A stretch of DNA of 64,000 bases from Planococcus lenghuensis (GTDB taxonomy: Bacteria > Bacillota > Bacilli > Bacillales_A > Planococcaceae). Below the pieces are notes generated by a model. The model was not told where the DNA came from and searched no databases. It saw only the letters and a list, made by a program, of their open reading frames with translations. The stretch is taken from positions 2,212,001 to 2,276,000 of the forward strand of contig NZ_CP019640.1 of the NCBI RefSeq assembly GCF_001999905.1, in the 5' to 3' direction. The position numbers and the translations under genes are program-made. This document shows, piece after piece, positions 21,931-26,412 of this stretch; position 1 is the first letter of the stretch, and each line of letters opens with the position of its first letter.

Positions 21931-21980
21931 TAAAAATGGAAGCCCTGTAAACAGAAATGCTTACAGGGCTTCCATTTTAT
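21931..21980. terminator. Bidirectional terminator upstream of the riboswitch
   Basis: ATGGAAGCCCTGTAA (21936-21950) and TTACAGGGCTTCCAT (21961-21975) are a perfect 15-bp inverted repeat with T runs on both strands. On the minus strand it ends the sigX-rsiX transcript before the ribU leader. Confidence 0.9.
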
Positions 21981-22042: not shown

Positions 22043-23254
22043 TCATGGAATCCATAGCACTTTGTTCGGTGCAACCGGTGGTTCAAGCGGCAGTGAGAGA
22101 TCATAATTCATCCAAGTGTCCTGCAACACATTCACCACCCTGACTTCATTGCCGAATGAGCCGGCTGTCAGTGCAAGGCTTTCAAAAAGTCTGGCGATTT
22201 CCGTCTCATCGAGAAGAGAAAGATCCAGCGGCTCAGCAAATGTGACAATCACTGTTCCCGCCTGTTCCTCTACTGCGTATGCAATGTCCTCCGGAATCGG
22301 AGATGCCAGCAGATCGCTCGGTGCTTCCTGAAGTGCGGTGAGCGCTTCAACAGCAGAACTATAGCCGGAGCCGTAATCCGGCGCCAAGTACATTTCCCCG
22401 TTTGCTGCCGTGAAGACAAAATAAGCTGCGCCTTCAACCCCGCCGGTTATCGGCTCCACAGGTCCGATCGGGTCAATTTCCGCCTGCTCACCTGTTTCTG
22501 TTATCACTTCAATCTGCTCGGCCTCCCGGAAGGTTTCCTGCAGACTCGCCATATAGACGGAAGCAGTGGCTGATGAAAGCCCGAACTCGTGATCAGCCGG
22601 CAGCTCATGCACGACTGTTCCGTCTTCTGATGCAATCGTGCCGGGATACGGATGATAATCATCGAATCCCAGCGCTTCTTCATCCACTTCAGCTGCAAAG
22701 GCATTATACAAGGCAGCAATTTCCGGCTCCGTGCCGTCGAGCAGCTCGGACGGAACAAGCACTGAAACCGGAACAACAAATGCTTCGGTTGTCAGTCCGA
22801 GTGACAGTAGTTCATAACCTTCCAAGTCTCCAGGATAGACGGCTGTGCGAACGTCCTCTGCCAATGGAGCCATTTCCGCACTTTCTGCCATTCCTTCTCC
22901 TTCAGCTGTCGCCGCTTCTTCAACTGCTTCCTCTTCCATTACAGCCTCTTCCTCAACGGCCGCTTCTTCACCGCCGTTATCGAGGGCAGCCTCTTCTTCC
23001 ACAAGTTCCGCTTCTTCCATTCCGGCCGTTTCAAAATTGGTTTCCCGGCCGAGGAAAGAAGCCAACAGGATGCCCAAGGTCAGGAATGCCGCTGCCGCAA
23101 CGACAGCGGGCATCCAATGCGTCTGCCTTTTTGGCGGTTTTGTTTCTCTTTGAAGCCGCCTTTGAACTTCTTCTTTCGGCCGGTGGTCTTCAATTTTCGG
23201 AAATTCCCGGAGCAGCTGTTCAATGCGATCGTCATCCCATTCATTATGTGCCAT
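22043..23254 (-). CDS. rsiX: Membrane anti-sigma factor, RsiX-like
   Basis: Probable regulator of the adjacent ECF sigma factor. The 403-residue protein has a short basic cytoplasmic part (1-50), one transmembrane segment at about 48-67 (MPAVVAAAAFLTLGILLASF), then a Glu/Ala-rich low-complexity stretch (about 78-125, repeated EEEAV/EEAA units) and a large extracytoplasmic domain. The plan matches B. subtilis RsiX. The ATG at 23254 has AAGGGG 8 nt upstream, and the start overlaps the sigX end by 11 bp. The acidic stretch is unusually repetitive and may differ between strains. Confidence 0.75.
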   Translation of the reverse strand: MAHNEWDDDRIEQLLREFPKIEDHRPKEEVQRRLQRETKPPKRQTHWMPAVVAAAAFLTLGILLASFLGRETNFETAGMEEAELVEEEAALDNGGEEAAVEEEAVMEEEAVEEAATAEGEGMAESAEMAPLAEDVRTAVYPGDLEGYELLSLGLTTEAFVVPVSVLVPSELLDGTEPEIAALYNAFAAEVDEEALGFDDYHPYPGTIASEDGTVVHELPADHEFGLSSATASVYMASLQETFREAEQIEVITETGEQAEIDPIGPVEPITGGVEGAAYFVFTAANGEMYLAPDYGSGYSSAVEALTALQEAPSDLLASPIPEDIAYAVEEQAGTVIVTFAEPLDLSLLDETEIARLFESLALTAGSFGNEVRVVNVLQDTWMNYDLSLPLEPPVAPNKVLWIP

Positions 23255-23777
23255 CCGAGCCACCCCTTTCGCCCGCGTTCATTTTTTCACGCAGCACTTT
23301 AATTCCCCGATGCTGGACGGTTTTCACTTTCCCTTCTGTCCAGCCGAGCGCTTCCGCGGTTTCCGCAATGGACAAATCCTGAAAAAAACGCAGGAGGATG
23401 ACCATTTTCTGATCGCCTGTGCATTGATCCAGCATTTCATATAAATACTGTTTATCTTCGTTCAGTTCCGTCACTTCTTCCGGCATTCGTTCCGCAGAGA
23501 CGAGTTGCTGTGTCTCCCAGTCAAAAAAATCCTGGGCGTGGCGTTTGCGCACTGCCATCTTTCTGAAATGGTCGATCGCGACATTTTTGGCAATCGAAAA
23601 AAGCCAGGTCTTCTCCGAGCTTTTGCCTTCAAAGCGGTCATAAGCCCTGAACACCCGTATATACACTTCATGCATCAAATCTTCTGCAATGTGCCGGTTT
23701 TTCACGAGATAAACAAGAAATTGAAACACGTCTTGATGATACTCATCATACAGCCGGTGAAAAACGGAGTCATTCAT
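23244..23777 (-). CDS. sigX: ECF RNA polymerase sigma factor, SigX-like
   Basis: Extracytoplasmic-function sigma factor of 177 residues. Sigma region 2 covers about 8-75 (LYDEYHQDVFQFLVYLVKNRHIAEDLMHEVYIRVFRAYDRFE, then KTWLFSIAKNVAIDHFRK) and region 4 about 110-165 (DQKMVILLRFFQDLSIAETAEALGWTEGKVKTVQHRGIKVLRE). Position next to resE and the ECF-type sequence before it (23800-23828) support SigX. In B. subtilis SigX controls cell-surface charge genes. It overlaps rsiX, giving coupled translation. Confidence 0.88.
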   Translation of the reverse strand: MNDSVFHRLYDEYHQDVFQFLVYLVKNRHIAEDLMHEVYIRVFRAYDRFEGKSSEKTWLFSIAKNVAIDHFRKMAVRKRHAQDFFDWETQQLVSAERMPEEVTELNEDKQYLYEMLDQCTGDQKMVILLRFFQDLSIAETAEALGWTEGKVKTVQHRGIKVLREKMNAGERGGSDGT

Positions 23778-23799
23778 GCACTCCCTCCGTTCAGTGGAT

Positions 23800-23828
23800 T
23801 AGTCGTACAGCCAGCCGCTTTAGTTACA
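23800..23828 (-). promoter_or_regulatory. Candidate SigX-type autoregulatory promoter
   Basis: On the minus strand TGTAAC (23823-23828) and CGACTA (23800-23805) are separated by exactly 17 nt. That fits the ECF consensus (AAC in -35, CGAC in -10) reported for B. subtilis SigX. It sits 23 nt before the sigX start and overlaps the resE stop codon. Spacing and hexamers are read directly; use by this sigma factor is inferred. Confidence 0.65.
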
Positions 23829-25605
23829 GCTTTTTAAGCGGCAGTATAAAAGAAAATACGGTTCCTTCTCCAAGCGCACTTTCTGCAAAGATTTTCCCAT
23901 CATGCGCAATAATAATGTTACGGGCAATCGCCAAGCCAAGACCGGTTCCGCCTTTTCCGCGGGTCCTCGCTTTATCGGCCTTATAAAACCGTTCGAAAAC
24001 ATATTCCAGATCCTCAACTGTTATGCCAATGCCGTTATCAGCAACCGCCACTTTCGCAAAGCCCTGTTCCTTCGTGACGCTTATTGTCACGTCTCCCCCC
24101 TGCGGCGTATGCCGAATAGCATTATCAATCAAGTTGGTCATCACTTGCTCGATGCGGTCTTCATCCATCTCGGCAATCACTTGATCACTGAGCGGCGAAT
24201 TGAATGATAGTCTGACTTCCTGCTCGCGGGCCGCTTGGGCGAATTTCATCGTCATTCGCTCGATCGCCGGTTTCACCGCCACCGGGTTGCGGTACAGCCG
24301 CATATGGCCGGACTCCAGACGGGCCAGGTCCAACAGATCCGAAACGAGCCGGCCCATGCGGTGTGATTCTTCGTAAATGATTTTCGTCACTTCCCGCCGT
24401 TCTTCTTCCGTCTCGACAATATCATCCATAATTGCCTCCGAGTAGCCCTGCAGCATCTGAACCGGCGTTCTTAATTCATGCGAGACATTGGCGATGAAAT
24501 CCGAACGGAGCTTTTCCAGCCGATGCTGTTCTGTCATATTACGGAGAACCGCCACAGCGCCCCGGACCGACTCTCCGCTGTAGAGCGGACTGATTGTGAT
24601 GGCATAATAGATGCCTTCCATTTCCAGCTCTTCATCCAATTCTTCTTCCTGCTCCAGTACATAATCGAGCATGTGGAGCATTTCAGATGGCATCAGGAAT
24701 TCCTCGTCTGCCCCGCGGCTGTAAAACCATTCCCGGATCAGCTGGTCTGCCGGCGGATTGCTGACAAGGATGGTGCGGTCCTGATTGAACGTGATTACCG
24801 CATCCGTCATGGAAGTCAGGATACTCGACAATTGTTCTTTTTCCTGGCTGATCACTTCCAAGTGATGCTTCAGCTGTCTGCCCATCTGATTGAACGCTAC
24901 AGCAAGCTGTCCGATTTCATCATTCGATGTCGCCCGCACTTTCGTTTCGAAATTACCTTTTGCGAGTTCCATCGCACCTTCCCGGATCTTCCGGAGCGGT
25001 GATGTGATTCGGGTGGACAGGAAAAATGCGAAAATCGTCGTCAGAATGAAGGCGATGAATGCAGATAAAAAGACGGTATTCGTCGTTTCTCTTGTCGTCT
25101 GCTGCATCACATCCAGCGACTGATAGATGAAAACCGTCCCGTGAACGGCTTCTTCCGCTTCCAGCGGACTGGCAAGCACAATGAATGATTCCAGCATGTT
25201 CTCATCCTGAAGCGATGGCAGAATCAGTTCTTTTACGACGGTCTGGTCAGTCTCGAACACTTCCTGAAATGCCGGTTCTTCCAATATCAGCTCACGTGTC
25301 CGCTCACTGTTCAGTCCTTCATGAATGTAGTATGTCACTTCATCCGGCTGCTGCGCAACCACCACATTGGTATCTTCATCCAGAATACTCGGAATCACTT
25401 CAAATGCCATCGATTCCCCTTCATGTTCCCGGAACAGTTGGGCGATGGTTTCCGCCTCCTGTGTGAGTGATTCCCGAATCTGCTCACTATGATAATTCTC
25501 CAGGAATTCAAGCTGCAAAACAGTTGCAATGAACAGAACAAACGAAACGAGAAGCAATATGGTTAACCACAGCTTCCCGACTACGCTATTCCATATTCTA
25601 TTCAT
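23824..25605 (-). CDS. resE: Sensor histidine kinase ResE
   Basis: Membrane kinase that with ResD controls aerobic/anaerobic respiration and cytochrome genes. The 593 residues contain a first transmembrane helix (about 8-30), an extracytoplasmic sensing region to about 165, a second helix (about 170-195), HAMP (to about 250), a PAS-like region, the H-box [21 protein letters not shown], and N, G1 and G2 boxes ending [19 protein letters not shown]. The ATG at 25605 follows GAGGT; a TTG twelve bases upstream is less likely. It overlaps resD by 8 bp. Confidence 0.93.
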
Positions 25606-26314
25606 TGACGACCTCAAATTTATAGCCGACGCCCCAGACGGTCACAATCATCTTGGCGGCTGATTCAGAAACCCGGTTCAGTTTCTCCCGCAATCGCTTC
25701 ACGTGCGTATCCACTGTCCGCAGATCCCCAAAAAAATCATAATGCCAGACTTCTTTGAGCAAATGCTCCCGATCAAACACTTTGTCCGGTGATTTCGCAA
25801 GAAAATACAGCAATTCGTATTCTTTCGGCGTCAAGTTCACTTCTTTGCCGTCTGCTGTCACGCGGTGTGCATCGTGATCGATGGTGAGGTGCGGAAACAC
25901 GACCAGCTCTTTTGAAACCGCCGTTCCTGCTACAGGCACGGAGCCTGCTGAGCGGCGCAGAAGCGCTTTGACCCGGAGCACGACTTCCCGCGGGCTGAAC
26001 GGTTTGACAATATAGTCATCCGCGCCGGTCTCAAATCCCTGCACGCGGTTCGCTTCTTCCCCTTTTGCCGTCAGCATGATGATCGGCGTCGTTTTCTTTT
26101 CACGCAATTCCTCCGTCACTTCAATTCCGTCTTTCTCCGGCATCATAAGATCCAGCAGGATGCAGTGGTAGTCTTTTGCAAGCGCCATCTCCAAGGCTTC
26201 AGCTCCGTCTCCGGCTTCTTCGACTGTATAGCCTTCCCGTTCCAAGTAAATTTTCAGCAGACGACGAATTCGTTCTTCATCATCCACAACCAGTATCGTA
26301 ATTTCTTCAGACAT
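25598..26314 (-). CDS. resD: Response regulator ResD
   Basis: OmpR-family DNA-binding regulator, 238 residues. The receiver domain (about 5-120) has acidic pocket VVDDEE, phospho-acceptor Asp in LLDLMMPEKDG, and the LTAKGEE/KPFSPRE conserved Thr and Lys. The C-terminal winged helix (about 140-238) ends RTVDTHVKRLREKL...VWGVGYKFE. The ATG at 26314 has GGAGGGG upstream; the longer frame has no support. A terminator between resC and this gene indicates that resDE can be transcribed alone. Confidence 0.95.
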   Translation of the reverse strand: MSEEITILVVDDEERIRRLLKIYLEREGYTVEEAGDGAEALEMALAKDYHCILLDLMMPEKDGIEVTEELREKKTTPIIMLTAKGEEANRVQGFETGADDYIVKPFSPREVVLRVKALLRRSAGSVPVAGTAVSKELVVFPHLTIDHDAHRVTADGKEVNLTPKEYELLYFLAKSPDKVFDREHLLKEVWHYDFFGDLRTVDTHVKRLREKLNRVSESAAKMIVTVWGVGYKFEVVNE

Positions 26315-26373: not shown

Positions 26374-26406
26374 ATGAAAAGCCTTTTCCCGGAAAGGAAA
26401 AGGCTT
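26374..26406 (-). terminator. Terminator between resC and resD
   Basis: AAGCCTTTTCC (26379-26389) and GGAAAAGGCTT (26396-26406) pair with a six-base loop, then TTTTCATTTATTTTT on the minus strand. It splits resABC from resDE, probably with partial read-through. Confidence 0.8.
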
Positions 26407-26412
26407 CAAGGA

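Follow-up and report, generated by a model that had tools for sequence, protein, structure and literature searches.

In Planococcus lenghuensis, the gene of an ECF sigma factor, sigX, starts a few dozen nucleotides downstream of a sensor kinase gene, resE, and a sequence resembling a SigX-dependent promoter reaches into the last codon of the kinase. Is this sequence a promoter by which SigX activates its own gene, and does it separate the sigma operon from the res genes? We addressed these questions in a 64,000-nt stretch of the chromosome (hereafter the window, whose first letter is position 1) by comparing the locus with its counterparts in related bacteria.

Organization of the resE-sigX-rsiX locus

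The relevant features of the window, all on the minus strand, are the following:

26378..26407, minus strand: terminator-like hairpin after resC and before resD, 13-bp stem with a T-rich tail (hairpin scan)
25598..26314, minus strand: resD, ORF of an OmpR-type response regulator (response-regulator models; start read as ATG)
23824..25617, minus strand: resE, ORF of a sensor histidine kinase (HisK_sensor, HAMP, HisKA and HATPase_c)
23823..23828, minus strand: −35 element TGTAAC, which holds the resE stop codon TAA (23826-23824); NG(A/C/T)AAC is kept in all 126 SigX loci of the family
23806..23822, minus strand: 17-nt spacer with a G+C of 0.53, in which the −35 element is not followed by a run of two or more T
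23798..23805, minus strand: −10 element CGAC (23805-23802, read directly) and conserved extension TAAT
23781..23788, minus strand: sigX ribosome-binding site GGAGGGAG (read directly)
23244..23777, minus strand: sigX, ECF sigma factor of 177 aa (NF007220, 264.8 bits against a cut-off of 260; Sigma70_r2 and r4)
22043..23254, minus strand: rsiX, probable anti-sigma factor of 403 aa (homology and position)
21934..21977, minus strand: terminator-like hairpin after rsiX, 20-bp stem with a T-rich tail (hairpin scan)

The sigX product passes the curated equivalog cut-off of NCBIfam model NF007220 and falls below that of a second SigX model, NF007217 (210 versus 239 bits). The ORF that follows probably encodes RsiX. 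Its product gave no match in Pfam and NCBIfam profile searches, and blastp aligned it with the ORF located after sigX in Planococcus-type relatives (44% identity over 410 aa in L205, 40% over 401 aa in L203) and in more distant loci (27% over 406 aa in L233, 28% over 427 aa in L269), while the B. subtilis-type loci L171 and L173 yielded short, weak matches and nothing more. We chose the ATG at 23254 as the start of rsiX, where the ORF list starts at a GTG (23263), so that rsiX overlaps the end of sigX by 11 nt. The res names rest on gene order and on the initial annotation because only general models match these products: among the 25 NCBIfam matches listed for each, no kinase model for resE and no response-regulator model for resD exceeds its cut-off. 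The order sensor kinase, sigX, anti-sigma factor is present, the last of these being recognized by homology and position only.

Direct reading of the minus strand from 23828 to 23800 gives TGTAAC-N17-CGACTA immediately 5′ of the sigma factor gene, which confirms the letters and coordinates reported in the initial annotation, as well as its observation that the −35 element covers the end of resE. At the resE end the letters are CTG TAA C; TGTAAC is followed at a distance of 17 nt by CGACTAAT, and further on come a strong ribosome-binding site and the sigX ATG (23777), with 46 nt between the resE stop codon and the sigX start. TGTAAC and CGAC, 16 to 17 nt apart and a short distance 5′ of sigX, agree with the SigX consensus.

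Conservation of the promoter upstream of sigX

We searched 151 sampled genomes of the family, which yielded 126 SigX orthologues at E ≤1e-50, all with upstream DNA; weak ECF homologues (L027-L030 and L166-L170) were left out of the SigX counts. The pattern NG(A/C/T)AAC-N16/17-CG(A/T)C lies just 5′ of sigX in 126 of the 126 loci, the −10 element being CGAC in 125 and CGTC in one. The strict form TG(A/T)AAC-N16/17-CGAC occurs within the last 90 nt in 120 of 126 loci, whereas 100 rounds of dinucleotide shuffling gave 0.04 on average and never more than 1. As for control stretches, 90 nt further upstream gave one match in 126, and neither the opposite strand of the last 90 nt nor a 90-nt stretch inside sigX gave any. 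In 125 of 126 loci, 22-30 nt separate the end of CGAC from the start of sigX, the start codons being picked by a script favouring a ribosome-binding site. For both the strict-form and the start-distance figures, promoter positions are independent of where resE ends. Many of these loci come from close relatives (several genera contribute 15-16 sampled species), and the 126 are therefore not 126 independent tests. Among the named loci, taken as the 80 best out of 452 confirmed ones, the motif is found in 80 of 80 (CGAC in 75, CGTC in five); this includes all 67 that do not duplicate a family locus, as the other 13 do. It is also found with 14 of 16 SigX matches outside the family, one of these 16 (L181) being identical to named locus L265. 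From this comparison of promoter sequence and conservation, a sigma factor of the stress response very probably uses the site as a genuine promoter to activate its own gene. These data would extend the SigX autoregulatory loop of B. subtilis to a neighbouring family, in which its phylogenetic footprint is clean.

Beyond the two hexamers, the four bases following CGAC in the 126 family loci are TAAT in 56, AAAT in 43, TACT in 10 and CAAT in nine, TAAT or AAAT together accounting for 99; the window has TAAT. The 17-nt spacer is nothing odd in itself, being present in nine of 126 family loci, 28 of 80 named loci and all four B. subtilis-type loci. The other 117 family loci have 16 nt, among them the sister species, the other sampled member of the genus (L002), whose −35 element is CGTAAC. 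Spacer composition sets the window apart: the family mean G+C is 0.26, a value above 0.5 is reached in four loci including that of the window, and the T-rich spacer start of most relatives is missing. Because its 17-nt spacer is G+C-rich and devoid of the T-run typical of relatives, the window copy of the promoter may be weak. For regulon searches, these alignments define a refined promoter consisting of TG(A/T)AAC, usually a T-rich spacer start, and CGAC with TAAT or AAAT as its most common continuation.

Some loci depart from this picture. Two orthologues in other families (L182 in G250 and L184 in G376) have good SigX scores, and neither the motif nor a ResE match was found in the 1.5 kb upstream; in these genomes sigX seems to have been relocated, with its promoter altered or lost. 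The CGTC variants occur in Sporosarcina (L226, L227, L231 and L237, the last identical to L146) and in Bacillus (L277), possibly reflecting a shift in sigma specificity. Finally, 14 of 19 genera of the family have a SigX orthologue at E ≤1e-50, and none was found in the sampled genomes of g6, g7, g10, g16 and g17, an apparent loss of sigX.

Transcriptional insulation from the res genes

The initial annotation considered the sigma operon to be wired out of the res cluster by its own promoter. Our results point the other way. In the window, the hairpin scan lists no terminator on the minus strand at the resE-sigX junction, and the terminator-like hairpins follow resC and rsiX instead. Their stems are the longest found on the minus strand in a scan that returned 12 sites in 7.3 kb versus 7.9 expected. 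As judged from detectable hairpins, sigX in the window is less insulated from the res genes than in many relatives, the opposite of being wired out.

The comparison with relatives brings out this difference. The B. subtilis-type loci L171-L174, so called because they score 410-417 bits against NF007217, whose cut-off the B. subtilis control sequence exceeds, share with the window the order resE-sigX-rsiX, TGTAAC-N17-CGAC and a short distance to the sigX start. Their resE, however, ends 142-156 nt 5′ of the −35 element, with a terminator in between in four of four loci (0-1 in shuffled sequences), whereas in the window the resE stop codon lies inside the −35 element and the scan found no terminator. 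Terminators located between the end of resE and the −35 element were likewise detected in 41 of 54 gapped named loci (0-3 in five shuffled rounds) and in 31 of 59 gapped family loci (1-4 in shuffled sequences), versus three of 64 compact loci, with energies of −9.9 to −10.3 kcal/mol (0-1 in shuffled sequences). The closest counterparts of the window in this respect are eight compact Planococcus/Planomicrobium loci (L201-L207 and L223), in all of which the resE TAA lies inside TGTAAC; seven have a 16-nt spacer and L202 one of 17 nt, compared with 17 nt and no T-run in the window.

These counts cover, for gapped loci, the DNA from 20 nt before the stop codon to the −35 element and, for compact loci, a fixed stretch around the junction. 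Fifty-four of the 80 named loci were scanned, leaving out 16 with a gap below 13 nt, six with a gap above 700 nt and four with no ResE end. The controls are simple base shuffles, and the scan addresses hairpins, not Rho-dependent or processed ends. A gap does not imply a detectable terminator, since an earlier terminator scan found none in the gapped loci of g14 (16 loci), g5 (five), g15 (one) and g3 (one). At least one of these, L014 of g15, displays a hairpin and T-run by eye, and the detector thus misses some.

With no terminator found between resE and sigX, a resDE transcript should continue into sigX. A missing hairpin alone does not demonstrate read-through, but insulation was probably lost in the lineage of the window, which would leave sigX with two inputs. 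We consider it highly likely that the site is an autoregulatory promoter of sigX-rsiX, that terminator-bearing intergenic DNA has been lost, and that read-through from resDE provides a second input. We infer the following scheme, from the signal and the use of the site by SigX to the transcription start, the past loss of DNA and the read-through. Envelope stress would free SigX from RsiX, and SigX-RNA polymerase would bind TGTAAC/CGAC and start transcription just 5′ of the sigX ribosome-binding site, raising the amount of sigX-rsiX mRNA in a positive loop restrained by the RsiX made along with SigX. In the lineage of the window, the DNA between resE and sigX, terminator included, would have been lost up to the edge of the promoter, so that resE now takes its stop codon from the −35 element and transcription from resDE probably continues into sigX-rsiX. 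Basal, ResDE-linked read-through and a stress-induced promoter would then both supply sigX.

Could read-through instead provide most of the sigX mRNA, under SigA/ResD control, with the SigX promoter playing a minor part? The lack of a terminator from resE to sigX, where hairpins follow only resC and rsiX, the 46 nt from stop to start and the unusual spacer of the window promoter are all compatible with such an arrangement. Yet all 126 family members retain the promoter, which thus looks selected even where genes are packed, and we regard a predominance of read-through as rather unlikely, although it is the most serious of the competing explanations. A SigA promoter just upstream was also considered. 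TGGAGA-N18-TATACT (23872-23843) matches 9 of 12 positions, and was rejected because the same scan yields 11 sites versus 6.9 expected; by eye, this stretch differs in the relatives inspected.

More tentatively, and with less than even confidence, loss of the resE terminator in compact lineages may have made an envelope-stress sigma operon part of the ResDE transcription unit, with oxygen or nitric-oxide signalling setting the basal level of SigX and RsiX while the −35 element doubles as the stop codon of the kinase. The series of loci running from insulated to fused resE-sigX offers a direct test of whether respiratory signalling enters envelope stress control upon loss of the terminator.

Sigma factor specificity of the promoter

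Under the preferred reading of an autoregulatory promoter, SigX itself would recognize the site. In B. subtilis, SigX polymerase transcribes sigX, according to one report (PMC5126115). The P. lenghuensis genome contains 17 matches to sigma-70 region 2, and a CGAC-type site next to the start is found only at sigX. The SigW gene of the same genome (L282; TIGR02948, 319 versus 243 bits) carries TGAAAC-N16-CGTA upstream. This SigW autoregulatory type resembles the sigX promoter in its TG(A/T)AAC −35 element, in a −10 element beginning with CG and in its location 5′ of its own sigma gene, but differs from it by CGTA in place of CGAC; the −10 element hence distinguishes sigX from sigW within one genome. 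Another sigma-70 region-2 match (L291) is preceded by TGAAAC-N17-CGTC, and yet another (L286) by a less well matching GGAAAC-N17-CGAC some 268 nt 5′ of its region 2.

The identification of the site as a SigX-type autoregulatory promoter, made in the initial annotation, is upheld by its presence in all 126 family orthologues, by the 120 strict matches set against 0.04 in shuffles, and by the different −10 element of sigW. A real promoter driven by SigW or some other ECF sigma factor, with sigX merely downstream and not autoregulated, would fit the many sigma factors of this genome and the overlap between ECF binding sites and regulons in B. subtilis, as described in another study (PMC3498285). 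This possibility is improbable given that the promoter accompanies sigX across families and that its CGAC is unlike the CGTA of the SigW type, and our sequence comparisons leave autoregulation by SigX well supported.

Relationship between the promoter and the end of resE

Comparison of the loci also separates the promoter from resE. It is still in place where resE ends 1.4-2.3 kb away (L241, L245, L257, L271 and L278; maximum 2336 nt), and in loci with no ResE match, namely four named loci (3 kb upstream) and six loci of other families (1.5 kb upstream). The promoter thus follows sigX rather than resE. The end of ResE could be determined in 123 of the 126 family loci, all but L010, L099 and L104, which have 222-694 nt of upstream DNA. 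The resE stop codon lies inside the −35 element in 52 of these 123 loci, either as the TAA of (T/C)GTAAC (34) or as the TGA of TGAAAC (18), and the resE frame passes beyond the hexamer in two. Conservation of TGTAAC as coding sequence for the end of ResE is consistent with the 34 loci in which the TAA of the hexamer is the stop codon and the last residue is M, L, V or A, but we reject it as having next to no chance of being correct because the hexamer persists where resE is distant or not found, is read in the other frame in the 18 TGAAAC loci and is overrun in two.

The overlap between stop codon and −35 element occurs in seven of 14 genera, and at least 12 changes are required to explain its presence or absence on a quick SigX tree. 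This tree has 132 rows, does not include L242 and L249, and gives weak support to 41 of its 122 inner branches. We favour the interpretation that the DNA between the two genes was shortened in repeated steps until the promoter halted the process, the −35 element then supplying the stop codon. The promoter is ordinary in kind, and what is notable about this locus is the compact overlap and the missing insulator. We found no description of a resE stop codon overlapping a −35 element among the titles and abstract openings listed in literature searches, and make no claim that none exists.

Genome-wide occurrence of the motif and candidate SigX targets

The pattern has one match in the window, and at least one match turns up in 12 of 100 shuffles of these 64 kb. 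The genome-wide scan for TGTAAC-N16/17-CGAC proposed as a check in the initial annotation could be run, but proved uninformative for the bare pattern, with 15 matches versus 21 for a reversed-pattern control. Such a count, not above its control, cannot support the promoter claim, and position and conservation carry the case. A chance match, which these two counts would allow, is ruled out for all practical purposes by positional conservation (126 of 126; strict form, 120 versus 0.04).

The refined motif TGWAAC-N15/17-CGACWA gave 14 matches genome-wide versus six in the control. One of the 14 is sigX itself. Five others (L302 and L306-L309) are identical copies inside ORFs of 316-463 codons; as the one copy tested, L302, encodes an IS605-type TnpB with a Cas12f1-like TNB domain, they probably belong to a repeated element. 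By eye, in an inspection that covered the motif matches alone, four of them (L300, L303, L305 and L311) precede genes with exported-looking starts. Three of these lie shortly 5′ of lipoprotein-like starts (G000:C1; L300 at 1626656, L303 at 2046243 and L305 at 2627715). The L303 frame is closed by a stop some 34 codons in. For L300, no counterpart of the protein was detected in the second sampled genome of the genus, and the motif is absent from the relatives inspected, L313-L315.

The fourth, L311 (also L318; G000:C1, about 3544341-3544368), has TGTAAC-N16-CGACTAA before a gene for a secreted or membrane protein with no Pfam match. The motif is absent from a weak relative, L320. Both sampled genomes of the genus have the gene, and its sole orthologue in the genus (L319 in G001) keeps the promoter, making L311 a candidate SigX target.
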